Positions 4,646 through 15,028 of a stretch of DNA of 42,119 nucleotides are shown piece by piece; positions within the stretch are counted from its first letter, which is position 1; every line of letters begins with the position of its first letter. The notes below the pieces were generated by a model. It had not been told where the DNA came from. It saw nothing but the letters and a program-made list of their open reading frames with translations, and searched no databases. The translations under genes were made by a program, and so were the position numbers. Origin of the DNA: Armatimonadota bacterium (GTDB taxonomy: Bacteria; Armatimonadota; UBA5829); the NCBI GenBank assembly GCA_012522575.1, contig JAAYKE010000125.1, forward strand, positions 1 through 42,119, given 5' to 3'.

Positions 4646-4717
4646 AAGCAGATTACTATATATTTGATGGGCAGGGATCTCCGAATCCAAAGCCCGGCCC
4701 GACCGGCAGTCACGCAC

Positions 4718-4747
4718 AAAAAAAGGCCGGTTCGAAAACCGGCCTTT
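4718..4747 (-). terminator. Rho-independent terminator of the Ig-like gene
   Basis: A perfect 11-bp stem (4722-4732 with 4737-4747, AAAGGCCGGTT) closes a 4-nt CGAA loop. Read on the minus strand it is followed by a T run complementary to 4718-4724. It lies 11 nt after the stop of the Ig-like gene. Confidence 0.9.
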
Positions 4748-4758
4748 CGATGGGAAGA

Positions 4759-5847
4759 TTATTCGGCGTCAACCGATAGTTGATCGTTTGTCACCAGTGC
4801 ATTCAATACAGGAGCCGGGCCGCTCACGTCAAGCGTTCCGGTCGCCGATACGAAGTCACCGTTGCCGAATCCGTGATCAGAGTAGATCACCTTAACAGGC
4901 AGACCGGAGCCATCATCGACCGTGAAGCTGTCCGCATCCGCCACGGTAACCTTACCCCAGATGGTGAACACGTTGTCAGCAGCCGCGATTATGATGATCG
5001 GATCCCATGCAGCCTTGTTGCTCAAGCCGTAGGATGGAACGTGATTAAGCACGCTGAACGCATCGCTCGGCCCGACAGCAATCGATTCATTGCCTGCCGC
5101 GTCCTGCGCGACTCCGGCGGCAATAGATATGCCAAGGGTTCCGTTGCCGGTGATACCCGATATAGTCACTAGGCGACTCGTCAGATCCTCTCCGCTCACT
5201 GCCACAGTTGCGGCATCCGCAGATCGACCCTTATCAAGAGTGACGTCGCCGTCCGCCAGTGTAACCTCATCCGCTCCGTCTATAGTAATCTCATAGGTCA
5301 CCGGACCGCTGTCGGTCACGCTGACGGAAGGATTGCCGATTGCCACGGTCGGAGGAGTGATGTCATATACCGTGCTCGTAGCTCCGTAGCCGGTTGGTTC
5401 ATCGGTAACGTTGCCGACGTTGTCCTCAGCAACAACGGCAAAGAAGTATTCATCCTCTTCGCTCACTGCAAAGTCGAACGAACCGTTAGCATTGCTGGAG
5501 GTCTCCAGCGTGGCAGCCCAATCGCCGCCTATGCCGGTCTTGGCCCAAAGCGTTACTTGCTTAACTCCGCTTTCGGAGTCCGATACGCTGTAGTTGACCA
5601 CAATCGGCGAGGTGTTGGTAGCAGCTACCGAGGTCACGCTGTCGATGGTCGGAGGCGTGCTGTCCATCGCGAACTGCTGAGTAGCAACTTCGCTGATGTT
5701 TCCGGCCTCGTCAACCGCTCGCACGTAAACCGTGTGAGAGCCGATAAGTGATTCGAACTCTATCGGGCTGGCGGCGGCTTCGAAGCCGCCATCATCAAGC
5801 TTGACCTCATAAATGAAGTCATTGGCGTCAGTAGATCCGCCAAACAC
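4759..5847 (-). CDS. Ig-like/OB-tail surface protein, apparently 5'-truncated remnant
   Basis: A 362-residue open frame made of bacterial Ig-like repeats: YEVKLDDGG..VYVRAVDEAGN, then STPPTIDSV..VVAEDNVGNV, then ITPPTVAIGNP..AQDAAGNES. It ends in an OB-fold-like tail (IWGKVTVADADSFTVDDGSG..VSATGTLDV). Such proteins are normally long, exported and begin with a signal peptide. This frame has no signal peptide and no ribosome-binding site, and it begins in the middle of an Ig repeat just after a TAA. The upstream terminator of the Spy-like gene is only about 70 bp away. The likely reading is a gene that lost its 5' part by rearrangement; a contig misjoin is the alternative. Its own terminator is intact. 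The GTG at 5847 is a formal start only. Confidence 0.6.
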   Translation of the reverse strand: MFGGSTDANDFIYEVKLDDGGFEAAASPIEFESLIGSHTVYVRAVDEAGNISEVATQQFAMDSTPPTIDSVTSVAATNTSPIVVNYSVSDSESGVKQVTLWAKTGIGGDWAATLETSSNANGSFDFAVSEEDEYFFAVVAEDNVGNVTDEPTGYGATSTVYDITPPTVAIGNPSVSVTDSGPVTYEITIDGADEVTLADGDVTLDKGRSADAATVAVSGEDLTSRLVTISGITGNGTLGISIAAGVAQDAAGNESIAVGPSDAFSVLNHVPSYGLSNKAAWDPIIIIAAADNVFTIWGKVTVADADSFTVDDGSGLPVKVIYSDHGFGNGDFVSATGTLDVSGPAPVLNALVTNDQLSVDAE

Positions 5848-5916: not shown

Positions 5917-5951
5917 AAAAAACAGCGGTGAGAGCTAATAGTCTCACCGCT
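5917..5951 (-). terminator. Rho-independent terminator of the Spy-like gene
   Basis: A 10-bp perfect stem (AGCGGTGAGA at 5924-5933 with TCTCACCGCT at 5942-5951) and an 8-nt loop, followed on the minus strand by a T run (complement of 5917-5922). It sits about 30 nt after the stop of the Spy/CpxP-like gene. Confidence 0.88.
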
Positions 5952-5983
5952 TTCAGCAATATCAATAATCTGACGAAACTGAC

Positions 5984-6547
5984 TTACTGATTTCTAGGAG
6001 CGCCACCGCCGGCCCCGGGTCGTGCGCGATCGCGATCCTGACGCCCTTCACCGCCATATCCGCCTGTTCTGCGAGTAGTCGCCTCAGAGAGTTTGGTCAC
6101 CTGAGCAGGGGTCAAAATGGATCTTACTTGCACCCAGGTCTGAAGGTTGGCGTCAGAGACGGCAGCATCCGCCTTTTGCGCGGCTACAAGAAGCGAGGAA
6201 GCCTTCGCAGAATCAAAAGTCGGGGCCATTACTGCGTCCCGCAACGCCTTGCTGGCGGCTTGAGCCGATTCCCGAAGCTTGGCAACCGTTGCCTCATTCT
6301 TTGTCAAAAGCGCCGCCAGCTTGGTTTTCTGATCCGCACTCAGCCCAAGTGTATCTGCGCTGCGCTCAATCATCATCGAAGAAGGTGGGGCGACCGCCAT
6401 TGCCGGGCACATACCCATCATTCCGCCCGCCATGCCTCCGGGAGCGCCGGCGGCGGGGCGATTAGCCTGGTTGCCGGGCTGTTGAGCAGATGCCATTGTC
6501 GCACAAACAAAAATCAGCGCCAATGCAATATAAACTGTCTTTTTCAA
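5984..6547 (-). CDS. Spy/CpxP-like periplasmic protein, methionine-rich N-terminus
   Basis: A 187-residue exported protein. The start is TTG at 6547, supported by AAGGAGG seven nucleotides upstream; the longer frame from 6574 would place that site inside the gene. It has a signal peptide (LKKTVYIALALIFVCATMASA), a Gly/Met-rich stretch (GGMAGGMMGMCPAM) and a helical domain with two LTxxQ-like motifs (LSADQKTKL and LTPAQVTKL). These are the mark of the Spy/CpxP family of periplasmic chaperone and stress sensors. The C-terminus is Gly/Arg rich. The Met cluster may bind soft metals such as copper, which is inference. It is divergent from the dehydrogenase-like gene. Confidence 0.8.
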   Translation of the reverse strand: MKKTVYIALALIFVCATMASAQQPGNQANRPAAGAPGGMAGGMMGMCPAMAVAPPSSMMIERSADTLGLSADQKTKLAALLTKNEATVAKLRESAQAASKALRDAVMAPTFDSAKASSLLVAAQKADAAVSDANLQTWVQVRSILTPAQVTKLSEATTRRTGGYGGEGRQDRDRARPGAGGGAPRNQ

Positions 6548-6760
6548 TTCGATTCCTCCTTTTGTGCAGCGCATAACCTCGAACTCCGAGGTATTTTGCC
6601 GTACTATCTATAGACGTTACCTCAAACAATTCGTTACAAACCACCGGCCTTCCTGTATATTATCGGCATTGTCCGCGACAAATTTCCAAATATCCTGTTT
6701 CCAGCGTCCCGCAATAGGGTATGAACGAGATTAACTCAACAATTACGGAGGAGCATTGCG

Positions 6761-7819
6761 ATGGCAAACATATCTACATCATTCATGGGATTAAATATGA
6801 GCAGCCCCATCGTTGTCGGCTCAAGCACTTTATCGAATCATACCGACAACATCAAACGCGCGGAAGATGCGGGCGCGGGAGGACTGGTCATCCACTCGCT
6901 CTTCCAGGAACAGATCGAACTGGAGGCTATGGAAATTGAAGAAGAACTGTTGATCAGTTCAGATCATTTTCCGGAATCTCTGACCTATTTCCCGCAGATG
7001 AAACACGCTGGTGCGCGGGAACATATCATGTGGGTGGAGAGAGCCAGAAAAGAAGTGAAGTTTCCGTTGATTGGCAGCCTGAACGCCACCTCAAAGGGCA
7101 AATGGATGGAATACGCCAGACAACTGGAGGAGGCCGGATGTGACGCTTTGGAGGTGAACCTGTACTCCATAGAATCCAACCCGACGAAATCTCCAAAAGA
7201 AATCGAAGAACGGACGCTGGAGATCGTGGCGGATGTGAAGTCGTGCGTGTCGATTCCGGTGGCGGTGAAGCTCAGCCACTGGCACACATCAATCTCCAAC
7301 TATTCCGACAAAGTGGTGCAGGCGGGAGCGGACGGGTTGGTGATGTTCAACAAGTTCCACCAACCTATGATCGACATTGAAAAAGAAGAGCTTGTGCTGA
7401 ACTGGAGCCTCAGTTCGCAGGCGGAGAACGGCCTGCCGCTGCGCTGGATTGCCCTGTTGTCCGGGCAGTTGGATGTGGATATGGCGGCTAACACCGGCAT
7501 ATATACCAGCGACGACGTGATAAGGCAAATACTTGTGGGCGCACATATAACCCAGATGGTTTCCGCGCTCTACTGCCACGGCCTGGAGCATATCACCGCC
7601 CTGAATACGGAGATATCGCAGTGGATGGACAAGCACGGCTACGATAGCATCGAGGCATTCAGAGGCAAGCTGGCGAAGCATAACGTCAACGATCCCTATG
7701 CGTTCGAACGAGCGCAGTATGTATCCCTGTTGATGAAGGCGCATGATCCGAAAGCTCAATATGGACTTGTGCATGGCTACTATCCAATAGAAGTGAGACC
7801 GGGGAGAGTGAGCGGATAG
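6761..7819 (+). CDS. Dihydroorotate dehydrogenase-like FMN protein
   Basis: A 352-residue TIM-barrel protein of the dihydroorotate dehydrogenase-like family. It begins with STSFMGLNMSSPIVVGSSTLS, the usual N-terminus of the group. Further barrel segments include FPLIGSLNATSKGKW, CDALEVNLYSIESNP, IPVAVKLSHW and ADGLVMFNKF, which line the FMN and substrate pocket. True PyrD has a catalytic Cys or Ser loop that is not obvious here, so the physiological substrate is uncertain. ACGGAGGAG precedes the ATG by 7 nt. The gene stands alone, divergent from the Spy-like gene, and is followed by a hairpin. Confidence 0.88.
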   Translation: MANISTSFMGLNMSSPIVVGSSTLSNHTDNIKRAEDAGAGGLVIHSLFQEQIELEAMEIEEELLISSDHFPESLTYFPQMKHAGAREHIMWVERARKEVKFPLIGSLNATSKGKWMEYARQLEEAGCDALEVNLYSIESNPTKSPKEIEERTLEIVADVKSCVSIPVAVKLSHWHTSISNYSDKVVQAGADGLVMFNKFHQPMIDIEKEELVLNWSLSSQAENGLPLRWIALLSGQLDVDMAANTGIYTSDDVIRQILVGAHITQMVSALYCHGLEHITALNTEISQWMDKHGYDSIEAFRGKLAKHNVNDPYAFERAQYVSLLMKAHDPKAQYGLVHGYYPIEVRPGRVSG

Positions 7820-7836
7820 CAACCTGGCTCAGCAAG

Positions 7837-7869
7837 AGACCCCTGCTCTTTCGGGTAGGGGTCTTAATT
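7837..7869 (+). terminator. Probable terminator after the DHOD-like gene
   Basis: A 10-bp stem with one G-U pair (AGACCCCTGC at 7837-7846 with GTAGGGGTCT at 7855-7864) and an 8-nt loop, followed by TAATTAT. The T tract is short, so efficiency may be modest. Confidence 0.65.
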
Positions 7870-7949
7870 ATGCCCGGCGGGTATTCCTTTGGCGTGGTTA
7901 AGCTGATACAATAGGCAGAGTCAACTTCACCTGGTTTGTGAGGAAAGCC

Positions 7950-8861
7950 ATGCCCAAAACGAATTCTCAAAAGACCGCCAAGCCCGCCGCAGGACAACTC
8001 GGCGTGGTTGTGGCTAACGTAGTCTCCCTCAGAGCTTCAGCCGATTCCGATACGGAATGCGTAACCCAAGCCCTCATCGGCCAGCCCGTGATCGCCGAGG
8101 GCGGACAAAAAGACTGGTACTATACGCAACTGTGGGATACATATCGCGGATGGGTTCCCGGATATGCCGTAAGGCTTTTTGAGGACAAATCGGCTCCGCA
8201 ATATGCATCGACCGGGCCGGTAGCGATAATACGGGAACTGTGGGCTGATATACACGAACAGCCCAACGACAAATCGACAATTTTAACAAAGGCGACCATC
8301 AGCGCAGAGTTTGAGGTCGTCGATTCTGTGCGCGACTGGGTCGAGTTGAGGCTTCCGGATTTGCGAACCGGATTCATCAACAAAAGAGATGCAAAGCTTG
8401 TAGACAAGCAGCTTGCACAGACGATATGGCTGCCTGATCCCGAAAAACTTCTGGAAACCGCCGGGCGTTTCGTCGGAGTCCCATATCTTTGGGGCGGAAC
8501 GTCCCCGTTTGGCATAGACTGCTCCGGCTTTGTGCAGCTTGTTCATCGCATTCATGGCATCACTCTGCTTCGCGACGCGCATATGCAGGCGGGGGATCCG
8601 CGCTGCCAGCGTGTGCAGAGAGAGGATGTCCGAACAGGAGACCTGGTATTCTTTGGAAAAGCTCCTGATCCCGACCTCTCCGCTGTCACCCACATAGGAA
8701 TAGCTATGGATAACGACTGGTTTATTCATTCCGGAGGGCAGGGCGGAGTGCAGATAACTCGCTTCGACGACCCGAACTCCAGATACTATAACAGGTATTG
8801 GGGCGCGCGCAGGATGAGATACGAAACCTTGGACGCAGGGGGCGGAGCGCCTCAGGACTGA
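7950..8861 (+). CDS. NlpC/P60 endopeptidase with N-terminal SH3 domains
   Basis: A 303-residue cell-wall peptide hydrolase. Two SH3b-like domains (about residues 15-75 and 85-150) precede an NlpC/P60 domain (about 165-300). The catalytic triad is visible: Cys191 in IDCSGF, His248 in VTHIGIAM and His260 in FIHSGG. The layout resembles YkfC-type gamma-D-glutamyl-L-diamino acid endopeptidases, which trim stem peptides. There is no signal peptide, which would fit a cytoplasmic recycling role as known for YkfC. The ATG at 7950 is preferred because AGGA lies 5 nt upstream; a GTG at 7938 is the alternative. Confidence 0.9.
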   Translation: MPKTNSQKTAKPAAGQLGVVVANVVSLRASADSDTECVTQALIGQPVIAEGGQKDWYYTQLWDTYRGWVPGYAVRLFEDKSAPQYASTGPVAIIRELWADIHEQPNDKSTILTKATISAEFEVVDSVRDWVELRLPDLRTGFINKRDAKLVDKQLAQTIWLPDPEKLLETAGRFVGVPYLWGGTSPFGIDCSGFVQLVHRIHGITLLRDAHMQAGDPRCQRVQREDVRTGDLVFFGKAPDPDLSAVTHIGIAMDNDWFIHSGGQGGVQITRFDDPNSRYYNRYWGARRMRYETLDAGGGAPQD

Positions 8862-9019
8862 TCGGCGCAGATCGTTTTGCGATTTGGGCGGGCGTCGATA
8901 TCTGTAAATAAAATCTATTGTATGAATCAGGCTTCGGCTGATAGTTTCGTGCACGCTCTGGATGGGTGGCATTGCCGAACCGCCATTATTTGTGATTAAA
9001 TGACGGAAACGAGGATAAT

Positions 9020-10240: not shown

Positions 10241-10274
10241 TAGAGGTTAGAGGTTGGAAGTTAGAGGTCAGAAG
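10241..10274. repeat. GAGGTTA heptamer run, copy 2
   Basis: Degenerate heptamers (GAGGTTA, GAGGTTG, GAAGTTA, GAGGTCA) start right after the stop of the hydrolase gene and abut the left end of the GTAAC-ended element at 10275. Confidence 0.75.
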
Positions 10275-10521
10275 GTAACAGCGCACTCTTTGTGAGTTAT
10301 AGTAGTGGCTGGTCGTATAACCCAGCCACACAAACTATGTCATTTCGAACGTAGTGAGAAATCTGCTTTTTTCGATGCCCGAGGTCAGATGTCCGAAGTT
10401 CGAGCCGTTATCGCGACCCCATTCCCAACATCTAATCTCCAACTTCTAACCTCTAAACGACCTTGTCCGAGACGGAGATCGGACACTGCGGGCGGAGGTG
10501 CTCATAATTCGTGGGTCATTA
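10275..10521 (+). repeat. MITE-like dispersed repeat, copy B
   Basis: About 247 bp starting GTAACAGCGCACTC and ending in a degenerate copy of the inverted end (TTCGTGGGTCATTA). It contains the core CATTTCGAACGTAGTGAGAA, the ATCTGCTTTTTTCGATG segment, an internal run of TAACCTC heptamers and a CCGAGACGGAGATCGGA hairpin. It is near-identical to the reverse complement of 30219-30465. Short frames in it encode the HFERSEKS peptide, which comes from repeat DNA and is not a gene. Confidence 0.8.
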
Positions 10522-10624
10522 TATTTCCGCCAATTACGTGATATTTTGGAACCTGTGCGGTATACTGTTCGTAGATATAGGGGAAGACATAAAAGTATAT
10601 CCCAATAGCTAATTGGGTAAATAA

Positions 10625-10742
10625 GACGCCGAATTCCGCGAACACGCGGAAGCGGGGGAACCAGCGTTTCCGGGGCTAATCTCCATTTTGAGGAGAGGGG
10701 TCGCTTCCGACCCCAGCCCGCCAGCTAACCTCGCAGGCGCGG
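10625..10742 (+). ncRNA. Cyclic di-AMP riboswitch (ydaO/yuaA leader)
   Basis: The conserved ydaO/yuaA blocks appear in the right order: GCCGAAT at 10628, GGGGGAACCA near 10654, CCGGGGCTAATC near 10671, a GGGGTCGC..CGACCCC hairpin, then GCCCGCCAGCTAACCTCG and AGGCG at about 10716-10739. The outer GCC/GGC pairing closes the aptamer. The ligand is c-di-AMP; in known cases it turns expression off, mainly of potassium-transport, osmolyte and cell-wall genes. A TATACT at 10561-10566 could be the -10 box of its promoter. The expression platform, 10743-10832, has GGCAGG and CCTGCC segments that could pair, but no strong T run, so the mode of control is unclear. The opine dehydrogenase gene follows 90 nt downstream. 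Confidence 0.92.
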
Positions 10743-10832
10743 CAGGAAGATCCACCCTGATATGCCTCTGCGTATGCCTGCCTGCTCCTTTCGGCTCAAT
10801 TTCTGATATTCAAGAAGCGATAGGAGGAGCAA

Positions 10833-11999
10833 ATGGAAACCAGAGAAGTGACCAGATTTGCGGTTCTCGGAGCAGGACACGGAGGCACGGCTATGGCCGG
10901 CCACCTTTCCCTGATGGGCTTTGATGTATCGCTCTATAATCGGGGAGAACAAAGACTCAGAGCCATTCAATCCGCAGGCGGTCTGGAAATACAAGCAGAC
11001 ATCTCAGACACATTTCCACGAGGGTTTGCAGAACTCAAAGTTGTAACCACCGACCCTGCCGAAGCCATCGCGGGCAGGCAGATTCTTATGGTTGTGGTCC
11101 CCGCCACCGCTCATAGATTTATTGCGGAGCAGATCGCGCCGCACCTCGTTGACGGACAGATAATAGTGCTCAATCCGGGGCGAACCGGCGGGGCTTTGGA
11201 GGTTCTCAAAACCATTCGGGATAATGATTGTCGCGCGGATATAATAGTGGCCGAAGCGCAGACCTTTCTATACGCCAGCCGCTCGATGAACCCCGCGCAG
11301 ACCAAGATATTCCGCATCAAAAACAGCATCCCTGTGGCGGCTCTTCCTGCATATCGAACGCCGGAGGTAGTCAAGGCTCTGCGGGTCGCGTTTCCTCATT
11401 TCGTCCCCGGCGACAATGTAATGAAAACCAGCCTGGATAATATAGGCGCGATTTTCCACCCCGCAGTTACCGTGCTCAACGCCGCGCGCATCGAAAGCAC
11501 CAACGGAGATTTCGATTATTATACCGAGGGAATCACCCCTGCGGTTGCCATGATTCTGGAATCTATGGATAAGGAGAGAGTGGCGGTCGCCGAATCGCTC
11601 GGTTTCAGGGCAATGACGGCCAGGGAATGGCTCTATATCGCTTATGACGCTGCCGGGCGCACACTGCACGAAGCGATGCGAGCCAACAGAGGCTACGATG
11701 GAATAAAAGCTCCTAAGACAGTCTTTCATCGATACATATCCGAAGATATTCCGATGAGCCTTGTCCCTATTTCATCGCTGGGGCAGATGGTCGGCGTTCC
11801 GACTCCCTGCATAGACTCAGTGATTCTGCTCGGCTCGGTGCTGCACGGAGTGGACTACCATGCCAATGGCAGAACGGTTGAAAACCTCGGGCTTGCGGGA
11901 AAGACCTTAAGGGAGATAAGACATTTTATCCTCGATGGGGAGACTCGCAAAAACAACGAACCTGTAGCAAAGGAGGATCCGCTATGCCAGGGACTATAG
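10833..11999 (+). CDS. NAD(P)-dependent opine (octopine/nopaline) dehydrogenase family protein
   Basis: A 388-residue enzyme of the octopine/nopaline dehydrogenase family, which reductively joins an amino acid to a 2-oxo acid. The Rossmann nucleotide loop is AVLGAGHGGTAMAGHL near residue 10. The C-terminal helical domain carries LDNIGAIFHPAVTVLNAARIE with the family's catalytic His. The end region (SSLGQMVGVPTPCIDSVILLGS) is also typical of the family. AGGAGG lies 5 nt before the ATG. The stop overlaps the next gene by 16 nt, and the c-di-AMP riboswitch lies just upstream, so both genes probably respond to c-di-AMP. The substrates are not predictable; an osmolyte-like or metallophore-like opine are two inferences. 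Confidence 0.88.
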   Translation: METREVTRFAVLGAGHGGTAMAGHLSLMGFDVSLYNRGEQRLRAIQSAGGLEIQADISDTFPRGFAELKVVTTDPAEAIAGRQILMVVVPATAHRFIAEQIAPHLVDGQIIVLNPGRTGGALEVLKTIRDNDCRADIIVAEAQTFLYASRSMNPAQTKIFRIKNSIPVAALPAYRTPEVVKALRVAFPHFVPGDNVMKTSLDNIGAIFHPAVTVLNAARIESTNGDFDYYTEGITPAVAMILESMDKERVAVAESLGFRAMTAREWLYIAYDAAGRTLHEAMRANRGYDGIKAPKTVFHRYISEDIPMSLVPISSLGQMVGVPTPCIDSVILLGSVLHGVDYHANGRTVENLGLAGKTLREIRHFILDGETRKNNEPVAKEDPLCQGL

Positions 12000-13666
12000 T
12001 TGCAGGAGCGCTCGGAAACTGCGTCCACGTTGCCGGGGTAGCGTCGTATCTTAACATAGCCGAACAACTCGGCTACAAAACAGTTTTCCTCGGCGCGGCG
12101 GTATCCGTGGACAGGTTCGCAGACGCTATCGAGACCCACAAACCGGATATCGTTGGCGTCAGCTATCGGCTTACGCCGGAAGTTGGAGAAAGATTGCTCA
12201 ACAATCTTCATCGAACTCTTACGGATCGCGGGCTTGCAGATGCGAGGTTTATGTTCGGCGGCACTCCTCCTATGTGCGAGGTTGCCGACAGGCTCGGTTG
12301 GTTTGAGCAGCGCTTCAGCGGCCTTGAGAACCCGGATGAGATCTGGGCGTATCTTCGTGGCGAAAAGCGGGACTCAAAGCCGGAGGACTACGGCAGCGAC
12401 CTGATGTCGCGGCTCAACGCCAAGCATCCATATCCACTGCTGAGACATCACTTCGGCCCGGCCACGATGGATGAGATGATTGACGGCGTCAGCAGGATAG
12501 CGGAATCCGGAGCCCTCGACGTGATATCAATTGCGCCGGACCAAAACGCTCAGGAATCGTTCTTCAAACCCGAGGAAATGGACCCTGCGCTTGACGGAGC
12601 GGGTGGGGCGCCGATACGTTGTGCCGATGATCTTATCGCAATCCAGCAGGCCAGCCGCAAGGGAAACTATCCGTTGCTCAGAATATACAGCGGCACGCAC
12701 GATCTCATTAAATGGGCGCAGTTGTCGCAAAGCACAATATCAAACGCTTGGGCTGCGATTCCCCTTTGCTGGTATAGCGCGCTGGATGGACGGTCCGACC
12801 GCACGCCGGAGCAGGCTATTGCGGAAAACCAGACTGCTATGGAATGGCATGCCATGCGCGACATTCCGGTGGAGGTTAATGAGCCTCATCACTGGGCGTT
12901 GCGCGATTCGCACGACGTCATTTCGGTTGTAATGAGTTGGCTGGCCGCATATAACGCCAGGACTATGGGCGTCAGCCGTTATGTATCGCAGTATATGTTT
13001 AACACCCCTGCCGGTATTTCACCGGAGATGGACATCGCCAAGATACAGGCTCAAATCGCAATGGTGGAGAGCCTGCACGGGCCGGATTTCTTCTCGCTGA
13101 GACAGGCGCGCGCAGGTCTGCTGCATCTCTCTCCGCATCTGTCGCGGGCGAAAGGTCAGTTGGCCGCGTCAACGGCTCTGGCATTGTCGATATCCCCGCA
13201 TATCATTCACGTAGTAGGATTCTGCGAGGGAGATCACGCCGCCACTGCCGACGAGGTTATAGAGAGCTGCGAGATTGTCAACGGCGTGCTGAGAAACTGC
13301 CACGACAGTATGAGAAATCTCATAGGCAGCCCTCGTGTTACCGAGCGAAAGCAGGAGCTTCTATCTGAGGCTGAGACGCTTCTGAAAGCGATATCGGATT
13401 TGCGCGAGGGAGATGAGGATCCATACAGCAGCCCGCGAGTGATAGCAAAGGCGATATCGACCGGGATAATCGATGCGCCGCACCTGCGCGGTAATCCGCA
13501 TGCTGCGGGAGTTCTCTGTACGCGTGTGATCGATGGAGCGGTGAAATGTGTTGATCCGGTTGGAGGGGATATTCTCGATGAGCGGCAGCGACTGAGAGCT
13601 ATCGGGCAGTGCGCAGATATGGCCGCAACTCCGCTGGAGGCTTATGCGTCCTCTAATTCGATTTAA
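11984..13666 (+). CDS. Cobalamin-binding, methylaspartate-mutase-like fusion protein
   Basis: A 560-residue protein. Residues 1-110 look like a B12-binding domain: GALGNCVHVAGVASYL aligns with the DxHxxG loop, keeping the His that ligates cobalt but with Cys in place of Asp; GVSYRLTP and FMFGGTPP match the later SxL and GG motifs. Residues about 140-450 resemble a TIM barrel as in the epsilon subunit of glutamate (methylaspartate) mutase: DVISIAPDQNAQE, LLRIYSGTHDL, VEVNEPHHWALRDSHD. This domain order in one chain suggests an adenosylcobalamin-dependent carbon-skeleton mutase, but the reaction is unknown. AAAGGAGG lies just before the ATG. It overlaps the opine dehydrogenase by 16 nt and forms an operon with it. 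Confidence 0.72.
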   Translation: MPGTIVAGALGNCVHVAGVASYLNIAEQLGYKTVFLGAAVSVDRFADAIETHKPDIVGVSYRLTPEVGERLLNNLHRTLTDRGLADARFMFGGTPPMCEVADRLGWFEQRFSGLENPDEIWAYLRGEKRDSKPEDYGSDLMSRLNAKHPYPLLRHHFGPATMDEMIDGVSRIAESGALDVISIAPDQNAQESFFKPEEMDPALDGAGGAPIRCADDLIAIQQASRKGNYPLLRIYSGTHDLIKWAQLSQSTISNAWAAIPLCWYSALDGRSDRTPEQAIAENQTAMEWHAMRDIPVEVNEPHHWALRDSHDVISVVMSWLAAYNARTMGVSRYVSQYMFNTPAGISPEMDIAKIQAQIAMVESLHGPDFFSLRQARAGLLHLSPHLSRAKGQLAASTALALSISPHIIHVVGFCEGDHAATADEVIESCEIVNGVLRNCHDSMRNLIGSPRVTERKQELLSEAETLLKAISDLREGDEDPYSSPRVIAKAISTGIIDAPHLRGNPHAAGVLCTRVIDGAVKCVDPVGGDILDERQRLRAIGQCADMAATPLEAYASSNSI

Positions 13667-14739
13667 TCGCGCACGGCGAGTTGGGTGGACAAATCGAGAT
13701 ACAGCTTTATTGCTTCGGGAGGAATATCCCACGGGATGTGGTTGCCTATGCACATCATATACCCGCCGGTCATCTTTGCGGTCTCGACCATCTGCTCAAC
13801 CATAGCTCTGATCTCTGCGGGATTATTGCGCGTCAGGATTCTATTATCCCCTTCGCCCGCTATAAAACAGTTCTCGTGTTTGCGGGCAATCGCGCGCCAG
13901 TCGGTATAGGGTTCCGATATTATCCCACGTGCGCCGCAGGCGAAAATATCGTCGGCATAGGCGTCGATGCATCCATCGACCATAAAAATCGCCTCCTTGC
14001 CGGCGGCTTTAAGTATTCCCCAAAACTCTTCATATCGAGGGAATATATGCTTATGCATCCACGCAGGGGAACAGACCGGGCCGCGGGAGGTGACAATATC
14101 GTCGTGGCATATAACGAAGTTGACCGGCAGCCTTGCAAACGCCCGAAACACCCGCCGGTTGATCTCCGCGAACTCGTTCATTATCCGTTCAAATCGCTCA
14201 TCAAGGCAGGTTTCGAGGAACAATTCCCATCCAAAGGTCAGCAGCGGCCACATAAACATAGTGTTATAAAACCCGACTGATGCCGACGAGCCTGCCGGAG
14301 CTTTGTCTCCCCACTCGGCGGGATAAACTGATCTGTATGCGCGATACAGCTTCTCCTCATCGCGATAATCGCGGGACTCCACCACCGGAATTTCGGTGAA
14401 ATCGCCCTGTTTGATCGGGGAAAACGCGAACACATCCTCCGCGCTTTTCATTTTCGCGCCCCAATCCCACCTCCACGACTTCCCATCTCCCCACCGCACA
14501 GAGTGATCGCCGTCCTCGCGCTCATCTGCCTCAACAGGTCGGGCTATCGGAGCGTCGTCGTGCATCGGAGACAGTTCCAGACAAGGGTATAATTCCCGCA
14601 TCCTGTCGCGACACTGTTTGGGATGCTGATAATAATCGATCCCCGTAATATAACTCTCCGCATCCGGGCACGACCAATGCTCCCAATGCGGAATCCTCTT
14701 CGGCCCAAGCCCCATAAAGGCCATATATCTGTCGTCCAT
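13663..14739 (-). CDS. Uroporphyrinogen-decarboxylase (UroD)-like protein
   Basis: A 358-residue protein of the UroD/methylcobamide:CoM methyltransferase superfamily. Recognisable segments include MWPLLTFGWELFLETCLDE, INRRVFRAFARLPVNFVICHDDIVTSRGP, a GARGIISEP barrel strand and the C-terminal GYMMCIGNHIPWDIPPEAIKLYLD. The HxCG zinc motif of the methyltransferase branch is replaced by MVDG, so a classic MtaA-type activity is doubtful. Tetrapyrrole decarboxylation is also unlikely given the lineage-specific sequence. The ATG at 14739 is chosen; the frame is open further upstream but runs into repeat DNA. Its stop overlaps the stop of the cobalamin gene on the other strand by 4 nt. Confidence 0.78.
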   Translation of the reverse strand: MDDRYMAFMGLGPKRIPHWEHWSCPDAESYITGIDYYQHPKQCRDRMRELYPCLELSPMHDDAPIARPVEADEREDGDHSVRWGDGKSWRWDWGAKMKSAEDVFAFSPIKQGDFTEIPVVESRDYRDEEKLYRAYRSVYPAEWGDKAPAGSSASVGFYNTMFMWPLLTFGWELFLETCLDERFERIMNEFAEINRRVFRAFARLPVNFVICHDDIVTSRGPVCSPAWMHKHIFPRYEEFWGILKAAGKEAIFMVDGCIDAYADDIFACGARGIISEPYTDWRAIARKHENCFIAGEGDNRILTRNNPAEIRAMVEQMVETAKMTGGYMMCIGNHIPWDIPPEAIKLYLDLSTQLAVRD

Positions 14740-14753
14740 ATAATCCACGTCCT

Positions 14754-15028
14754 GTAACAACTCACTCTTCGTGAGTGATTGTAGTGACTGGTCTGTGTCC
14801 CAACCACACGTACTATGTCATTTCGAACGAAGTGAGAAATCTGCTTTTACGTAAATCGCGAAAGCCCGAAAGAAGCGAGACCCGGAAGCGGGAAGGGAAA
14901 AAGCAGATTCCTCGGCATTCGCCTCGGAATGACAAAAATTGGAGGCTACGCATAACCCTCTCAATAATCCTTCTAACCTCTAACCTCCAACCTCCAACCT
15001 CTAGATCTCATCATTCGTGAGCAGTTAC
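14754..15028 (+). repeat. MITE-like dispersed repeat, copy C
   Basis: A 275-bp element bounded by imperfect terminal inverted repeats: GTAACAACTCACTC at the left and the complement of GTAACTGCTCACGAATGATG at the right. The interior holds a long imperfect inverted repeat: GTCATTTCGAACGAAGTGAG through ATCTGCTTTT pairs with AAAAAGCAGATTCC through CGGAATGAC. TAACCTC heptamers lie at 14971-15003. The gap between the UroD-like and methyltransferase genes is almost wholly this element. No transposase is present. Confidence 0.82.

Follow-up and report, generated by a model that had tools for sequence, protein, structure and literature searches.

The stretch of DNA analysed here (the window) comprises 42,119 nucleotides of an Armatimonadota bacterium (assembly GCA_012522575.1, contig JAAYKE010000125.1), in which a cyclic di-AMP (c-di-AMP) riboswitch of the ydaO/yuaA class (RF00379) stands in front of two overlapping genes coding for an opine dehydrogenase (DH) and a fused cobalamin (B12)-binding, mutase-like protein (MU). 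Our reading, to which we assign a probability of about two in three, is that this locus is a c-di-AMP-controlled operon making a small opine-like compatible solute for osmotic or ionic stress. DH and MU, whose enzyme types are both well studied but not known as partners, form a fixed pair across many bacterial phyla and some archaea. The clue to their role is the riboswitch, which assigns them to the regulon of c-di-AMP, concerned with osmotic balance and K+. The main features of the window are the following.

10617-10754, plus strand: c-di-AMP (ydaO/yuaA) riboswitch aptamer, RF00379
10833-11999, plus strand: DH, from ATG to stop, opine dehydrogenase of the type of N-(1-D-carboxyethyl)-L-norvaline dehydrogenase (CENDH), 388 amino acids (PF02317; structure 1bg6)
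11984-13666, plus strand: MU, from ATG to stop, fused B12-binding and glutamate-mutase-fold protein, 560 amino acids (PF02310; AlphaFold model)
11993-12274, plus strand: B12-binding domain of MU, residues 4-97 (PF02310; invariant H15, SxxL and GG motifs)
12401-13618, plus strand: catalytic barrel of MU, residues about 140-545 (predicted structure and profile comparisons)

Linkage of the c-di-AMP aptamer to the gene pair

The aptamer scored 83.6 bits (E-value of 3.6e-18) in an Infernal search with Rfam models, compared with a gathering score of 38 bits for RF00379, and the match spans model positions 1-134 of 134, that is, the complete model. An earlier note, made from the sequence alone, had claimed a ydaO/yuaA aptamer at this place; the identification is borne out, while the start given there (10625) lies 8 nucleotides too late. 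The same note had described a two-gene overlapping operon for an opine-dehydrogenase-family enzyme and a B12-binding mutase-like protein, and this description is right, with PF02317 and PF02310 matched and the two open reading frames (ORFs) sharing 16 nucleotides. Within the window RF00379 is the sole Rfam family exceeding its threshold, and the aptamer is the only copy of the family in the 3.06 Mb genome. Conserved aptamer columns are common to the window and 16 relatives in an alignment, and a diadenylate cyclase domain (DAC, PF02457, 142 bits) is encoded in the same genome. Judged by family membership, the aptamer would be expected to bind c-di-AMP. Published targets of this riboswitch class include genes for K+ transport, for osmotic shock and for the cell wall (PMC7266159), and amino acid transport genes and ablA are also known, whereas the target here is an opine dehydrogenase-mutase pair. 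Such a target was not found in the literature searched, outside which lie the founding surveys (Block 2010, Nelson 2013), and priority of the association is unproven.

The pair itself is well conserved. Among 291 Armatimonadota genomes, MU was found in 64, and 63 of these also encode a strong DH. Gene order was examined at 63 MU loci, and in 56 of them MU directly follows DH in the same orientation. Of the seven exceptions, four lack a nearby DH (some of them lie at a contig edge), two have convergent genes, and in one about 1.9 kb separates the two genes. A wider search of genome_contigs confirmed 523 relatives, of which the best 80 belong to Armatimonadota, Bacillota, Bacteroidota, Ignavibacteria, Aminicenantes, Thorarchaeota, Lokiarchaeota, Methanomicrobia and other groups. 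ORF clustering located DH at the MU locus in 76 of these 80, nearly always directly before MU, a figure that is biased upwards because the closest relatives were taken. DH is masked by an antisense ORF at two of the remaining four loci (L165 and L173; compare L042 and L040), and the other two begin at a contig edge. TldD/PmbA and other neighbours present at some loci were considered as operon members and dropped, being too rarely recurrent.

MU and an RF00379 aptamer co-occur in 16 Armatimonadota genomes, and the aptamer heads the DH-MU operon in 13 of them (G000, G001, G008, G011, G015, G017, G024, G028, G113, G154, G219, G055 and G023). The G055 aptamer is clipped by a contig end (35.7 bits), and in G023 the aptamer and the first half of DH are on one contig with the remainder on another. 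The three genomes without linkage are G014, with a degenerate match at the expected place (15.6 bits), G042, which is cut by a contig end, and G222, in which no aptamer was found within 1.5 kb of the pair. At the G014 locus (L047), with the degenerate aptamer at 4652-4781, the reading frame of MU (5923-7561) is interrupted near residue 380, through either decay or an assembly error. Fusibacter, Symbiobacterium, two Thermoanaerobacter and two further loci outside the phylum also carry the aptamer ahead of DH-MU, with Rfam scores of 91.9-116.9 bits. In the order of Thermoanaerobacter wiegelii, 21 of 24 genomes encode MU. Each of the 21 carries the aptamer ahead of DH, and in two cases there are two c-di-AMP aptamers in tandem (L264, 4228-4618; L265, 4245-4614). 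Near and remote relatives alike thus retain the riboswitch with this gene pair, a comparison that the earlier note had suggested. Of the outcomes that this note had named as refuting, a covariance score below gathering and unrelated genes behind the riboswitch in all close relatives could be examined, and neither occurred.

Genome counts are non-independent because close relatives share ancestry, and this raises the possibility that chance, or a single inherited event, put the riboswitch before the pair without a functional tie. However, linkage is seen in several phyla, with both subfamilies of MU and with different first genes (AsnB-like at L130, ATP-grasp at L236). A rapidly built tree of 113 DH proteins, whose long branches call for caution, requires 10 changes of the riboswitch label, and well-supported branches make at least 6 of these unavoidable. 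A functional tie would leave just this pattern, in which the switch is repeatedly gained or lost at one target and strictly retained (21 of 21) within a single order. An origin by chance or a single event is already contradicted and has hardly any probability left, and we regard the regulatory link between aptamer and operon as strong.

Relatives also suggest how the switch may act. At the T. wiegelii locus L225, a promoter-like site (11 of 12 consensus matches) lies 23 nucleotides ahead of the aptamer, and a putative 11-pair terminator is located between the aptamer and the DH start. Strong hairpins with T runs stand behind the aptamer at L236 and L187, and the terminator-like hairpins of all three loci have z-scores of -2.1 to -3.3. 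The window aptamer matches the complete family model, and relatives appear to possess the textbook terminator platform of RF00379. At the kdp leader, termination is promoted by c-di-AMP (PMC6488665), and repression of the DH-MU operon by c-di-AMP is likely. Cultured Thermoanaerobacter, with the switch in every examined genome that has the mutase, represents a ready test system.

The dehydrogenase and the mutase-like protein

DH matches the octopine dehydrogenase family (Octopine_DH, PF02317) at 4e-51 and 173.4 bits, compared with a cut-off of 30, and its N-terminus matches the NAD(P)-binding families PF01210 and PF03446. Its closest solved relative is CENDH (1bg6, 3.6e-75). In a separate alignment with 1bg6, H209, R300 and D305 of DH correspond to His202, Arg292 and Asp297, of which we take His202 and Asp297 to be the catalytic pair and Arg292 their neighbour, with roles in catalysis and oxo-acid binding. 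These three residues are invariant among the aligned DH proteins; that alignment included one CENDH row, which only narrowed the list of invariant columns. DH thus belongs to the same two-domain family as CENDH and octopine dehydrogenase (3c7a), from which it differs in its place in a mutase operon and in a nearly invariant Asn-Arg (N36-R37) after the second strand, where 1bg6 has Asp. The replacement of Asp by Asn-Arg suggests that DH uses NADPH, and hence that it would run in the biosynthetic direction.

MU contains a B12-binding domain (PF02310, 1.6e-10), in which H15 (at the DxHxxG-type position), G18, SYRL and GG are kept in nearly all relatives. Two MU subfamilies of about 550 and 630 amino acids, about 30% alike, each travel with DH, and the Asp of DxHxxG is Cys in the subfamily of the window and Asp in the other. 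The AlphaFold model of MU (pLDDT 89.8, pTM 0.79) gave glutamate mutase GlmE as top Foldseek matches (6h9e_B and 1cb7_B, E-values of 3e-15 and 4e-15, TMt 0.63-0.66), followed by lysine 5,6- and ornithine 4,5-aminomutases. By contrast, similarity in sequence is remote, as the C-terminus of MU scored 18.4 bits against the MutE family PF06368 (cut-off 26.6), and a profile of the catalytic domain reached no solved structure by sequence. Like GlmES/MutES, MU combines a B12 domain with a GlmE-type barrel, although in a single fused chain.

That glutamate mutase is the best fold match, and that PF06368 is matched by 7 of 17 MU catalytic domains (best 2.7e-7), could mean that MU performs a glutamate-mutase-like step in amino-acid degradation, with DH removing or adding the amino group. 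However, a genuine MutE is found at L240, between genes resembling MutL and methylaspartate ammonia-lyase by sequence, and neither of these two was found next to the DH-MU pair. The genome holding L240 (G299) encodes both this true MutE cluster and MU; because one genome carries both, MU and MutE probably do different jobs. Furthermore, the arginine claw that binds glutamate in glutamate mutase, presumably Arg66, Arg100 and Arg149, is replaced in MU by H156, Q190 and Y235, as placed by a weak alignment with the L240 MutE (E-value of 8.7e-4, probability 23%). Degradation under a c-di-AMP switch would also be unusual. With PF06368 below its cut-off in the window protein, the claw residues replaced and a different gene context, we rejected the assignment of MU as glutamate mutase: MU is related to that enzyme but is not one itself, glutamate is an unlikely substrate, and a catabolic role for the operon appears very improbable.

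A putative route to an opine-like solute

An AsnB-like protein accompanies the pair in 29 of the best 80 loci, usually directly after MU, and in about a dozen Armatimonadota loci, some of them riboswitch-bearing. Its order varies, being aptamer-AsnB-DH-MU in G219 and G055 and aptamer-DH-MU-AsnB in G113, G154 and T. wiegelii. At two riboswitch-bearing loci a Ddl-like ATP-grasp ligase occurs in its place, before DH at L236 and after MU at L222. Because two unrelated amide-forming enzymes share that place, they suggest that amide formation belongs to the pathway. DH and MU match no enzyme of the ablA/ablB, ectoine or N-acetylglutaminylglutamine amide (NAGGN) pathways, and the third gene of the relatives is merely AsnB-like (132 bits, versus 570 for the NAGGN amidotransferase).

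A link to ions comes from Candidatus Desantisbacteria, where locus L213 carries two riboswitches of the nhaA-I (Li+-I) class, RF03057, at these positions.

L213, 4760-4813: nhaA-I riboswitch
L213, 9453-9505: nhaA-I riboswitch

One precedes a DH-MU-CBS-Na+/H+ exchanger gene array and the second precedes an AsnB-like gene, tying this gene to the pair with both under alkali-cation control. The class senses Li+, and Na+ sensing by some members has been left open (PMC9646797). A precedent for the kind of target exists as well, since the Dehalobacter gene ablA, the source of an osmolyte precursor, is under a c-di-AMP riboswitch that shuts it off (PMC9337991). That system, which makes N-epsilon-acetyl-beta-lysine under Na+ and c-di-AMP riboswitches, likewise places a c-di-AMP off switch on an osmolyte-precursor mutase, but no opine dehydrogenase takes part in its pathway. 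In a genome of the window's own family (G008; L140, 5610-8405), a c-di-AMP aptamer precedes an MscS channel gene together with lysine 2,3-aminomutase, and at L139 (1383-2977), also of this family, one precedes lysine 2,3-aminomutase. AblA is a radical S-adenosylmethionine, pyridoxal phosphate enzyme. An osmotic or ionic role of the operon is likely.

The third gene also invites a different reading, in which DH, MU and the AsnB-like protein acting as a cyclase make a specialised metabolite or metallophore, i.e., an opine-type chelator or lactam. Lactam closure in the clavam and carbapenam pathways is the work of AsnB relatives that lack the glutaminase cysteine. Many AsnB-like partners have likewise lost this N-terminal catalytic cysteine (beginning MSGI, MAGI or MGGI), the complete L232 sequence (7633-8970) still has SGGLDS, and DH products would be N-carboxyalkyl amino acids resembling the substrates of such cyclases. 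By contrast, the cysteine is kept (MCGL or MCGI) in the AsnB-like proteins of L225 (7711-9246), L130, L175, L189 and L193, genes for exporters, receptors, nicotianamine-like synthases or resistance were not seen to recur beside the pair, and control by c-di-AMP and nhaA-I riboswitches better suits a housekeeping stress solute. We consider a specialised metabolite unlikely.

The pair could alternatively form a redox or fermentation module, in which anaerobes would re-oxidise NAD(P)H through opine formation by DH, MU would feed or drain the opine, and c-di-AMP would simply report the energy or growth state. Opine dehydrogenases do so in invertebrate muscle, and many carriers come from anaerobic settings, judged by record titles. 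However, the nearly invariant N36-R37 suggests NADPH and thus biosynthesis. A simple redox sink would be poorly matched with a B12 mutase and with an amide ligase that consumes ATP, and the nhaA-I control shared with a Na+/H+ exchanger at L213 fits ions instead. A redox module is accordingly given a small probability, similar to that of the specialised metabolite.

Under the compatible-solute reading, plentiful c-di-AMP, reflecting sufficient K+ and normal turgor, would keep expression off, and DH and MU would be made when c-di-AMP falls. The off step in Thermoanaerobacter and other relatives would be the intrinsic terminator visible right behind the aptamer. Given its conserved active site and the Asn-Arg after the second strand, DH would most likely catalyse NADPH-dependent reductive amination of a 2-oxo acid with an amino acid, yielding an opine-type N-(carboxyalkyl) amino acid. 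Judged by its fold, the most likely activity of MU is an adenosylcobalamin radical 1,2-rearrangement of a substrate or product of DH, probably other than glutamate, and in many relatives the AsnB-like or ATP-grasp enzyme might then form an amide or lactam. The earlier note had proposed that the mutase acts first and that the dehydrogenase turns its product into a compatible solute. The solute idea gains indirect support from the amide-forming third gene, from the nhaA-I riboswitches in another phylum and from the ablA precedent, while the mutase-before-dehydrogenase order does not. More broadly, and only tentatively, DH, MU and the amide-forming enzyme may constitute an undescribed pathway of many bacterial phyla and archaea to a new class of compatible solute, a B12-rearranged opine that is subsequently amidated or lactam-closed. 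In Armatimonadota and Bacillota its control would lie with the c-di-AMP switch, in other groups with an alkali-cation riboswitch. If true, this would be a new route to compatible solutes and, to our knowledge, the first that depends on B12.

Contrary observations and the leader of the window

Several observations weigh against a c-di-AMP-controlled solute operon. First, most carriers outside Armatimonadota and Bacillota, archaea included, have the pair without this riboswitch, indicating that c-di-AMP control is not universal. Second, the riboswitch alone is no proof of an osmotic role, because genes for cell-wall hydrolases and STAS proteins of the phylum are likewise under aptamers of this class. 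Third, no amide-forming gene lies next to the pair in the window, and its genome gave only a weak Asn_synthase match; because only the two core genes sit together, the product of this genome may lack the amide step. Finally, a terminator was sought 3' of the aptamer in the window leader and none was found, and the hairpin over the Shine-Dalgarno sequence is no more stable than dinucleotide shuffles (z-score of 0.19). On these last two results, the proposal of the earlier note that the operon is off at high c-di-AMP gains no support from this genome. The leader contains the following elements.

10538-10566, plus strand: promoter-like site GTGATA-17-TATACT, weak (9 of 12 consensus matches), 51 nucleotides upstream of the aptamer
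10783-10831, plus strand: candidate expression platform, TGCTCCT (10783-10789) complementary to AGGAGCA (10825-10831) over the Shine-Dalgarno sequence
10822-10829, plus strand: Shine-Dalgarno sequence AGGAGGAG, read directly in the sequence

The 3' end of the aptamer is separated from the DH start codon by 78 nucleotides. The TGCTCCT/AGGAGCA segment is mostly paired in the predicted fold, and the off step in the window may be occlusion of the ribosome-binding site; given the z-score, the sequestering hairpin was kept as a mere possibility, and ribosome-site control here is a guess from complementarity. As for the promoter-like site, it is one of four found on both strands, compared with 0.6 expected in shuffles, and these statistics are no evidence of function.

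Other c-di-AMP aptamers of the phylum stand before a variety of genes. NlpC/P60 cell-wall hydrolases lie downstream at L138, L147 and L148, and the NlpC/P60 gene of the window (7938-8861) has no aptamer in front. A small gene starts within 10 nucleotides of the aptamer at L141, L144, L145, L150, L151, L152 and L153; the one tested, that of L152, codes for a STAS-domain protein.

Around the operon, a uroporphyrinogen decarboxylase (URO-D)-like gene on the minus strand (13663-14760) ends where MU ends, and it is not recurrent beside DH-MU in the compared loci. Upstream of the leader, an element resembling a miniature inverted-repeat transposable element (MITE) occupies 10241-10455, with 28-nucleotide inverted arms flanking TGTCATTTCGAACGTAGTGAGAAATCT. 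This sequence has four near-copies in the window, compared with none expected, the further positions being 14816, 30377 and 33697.

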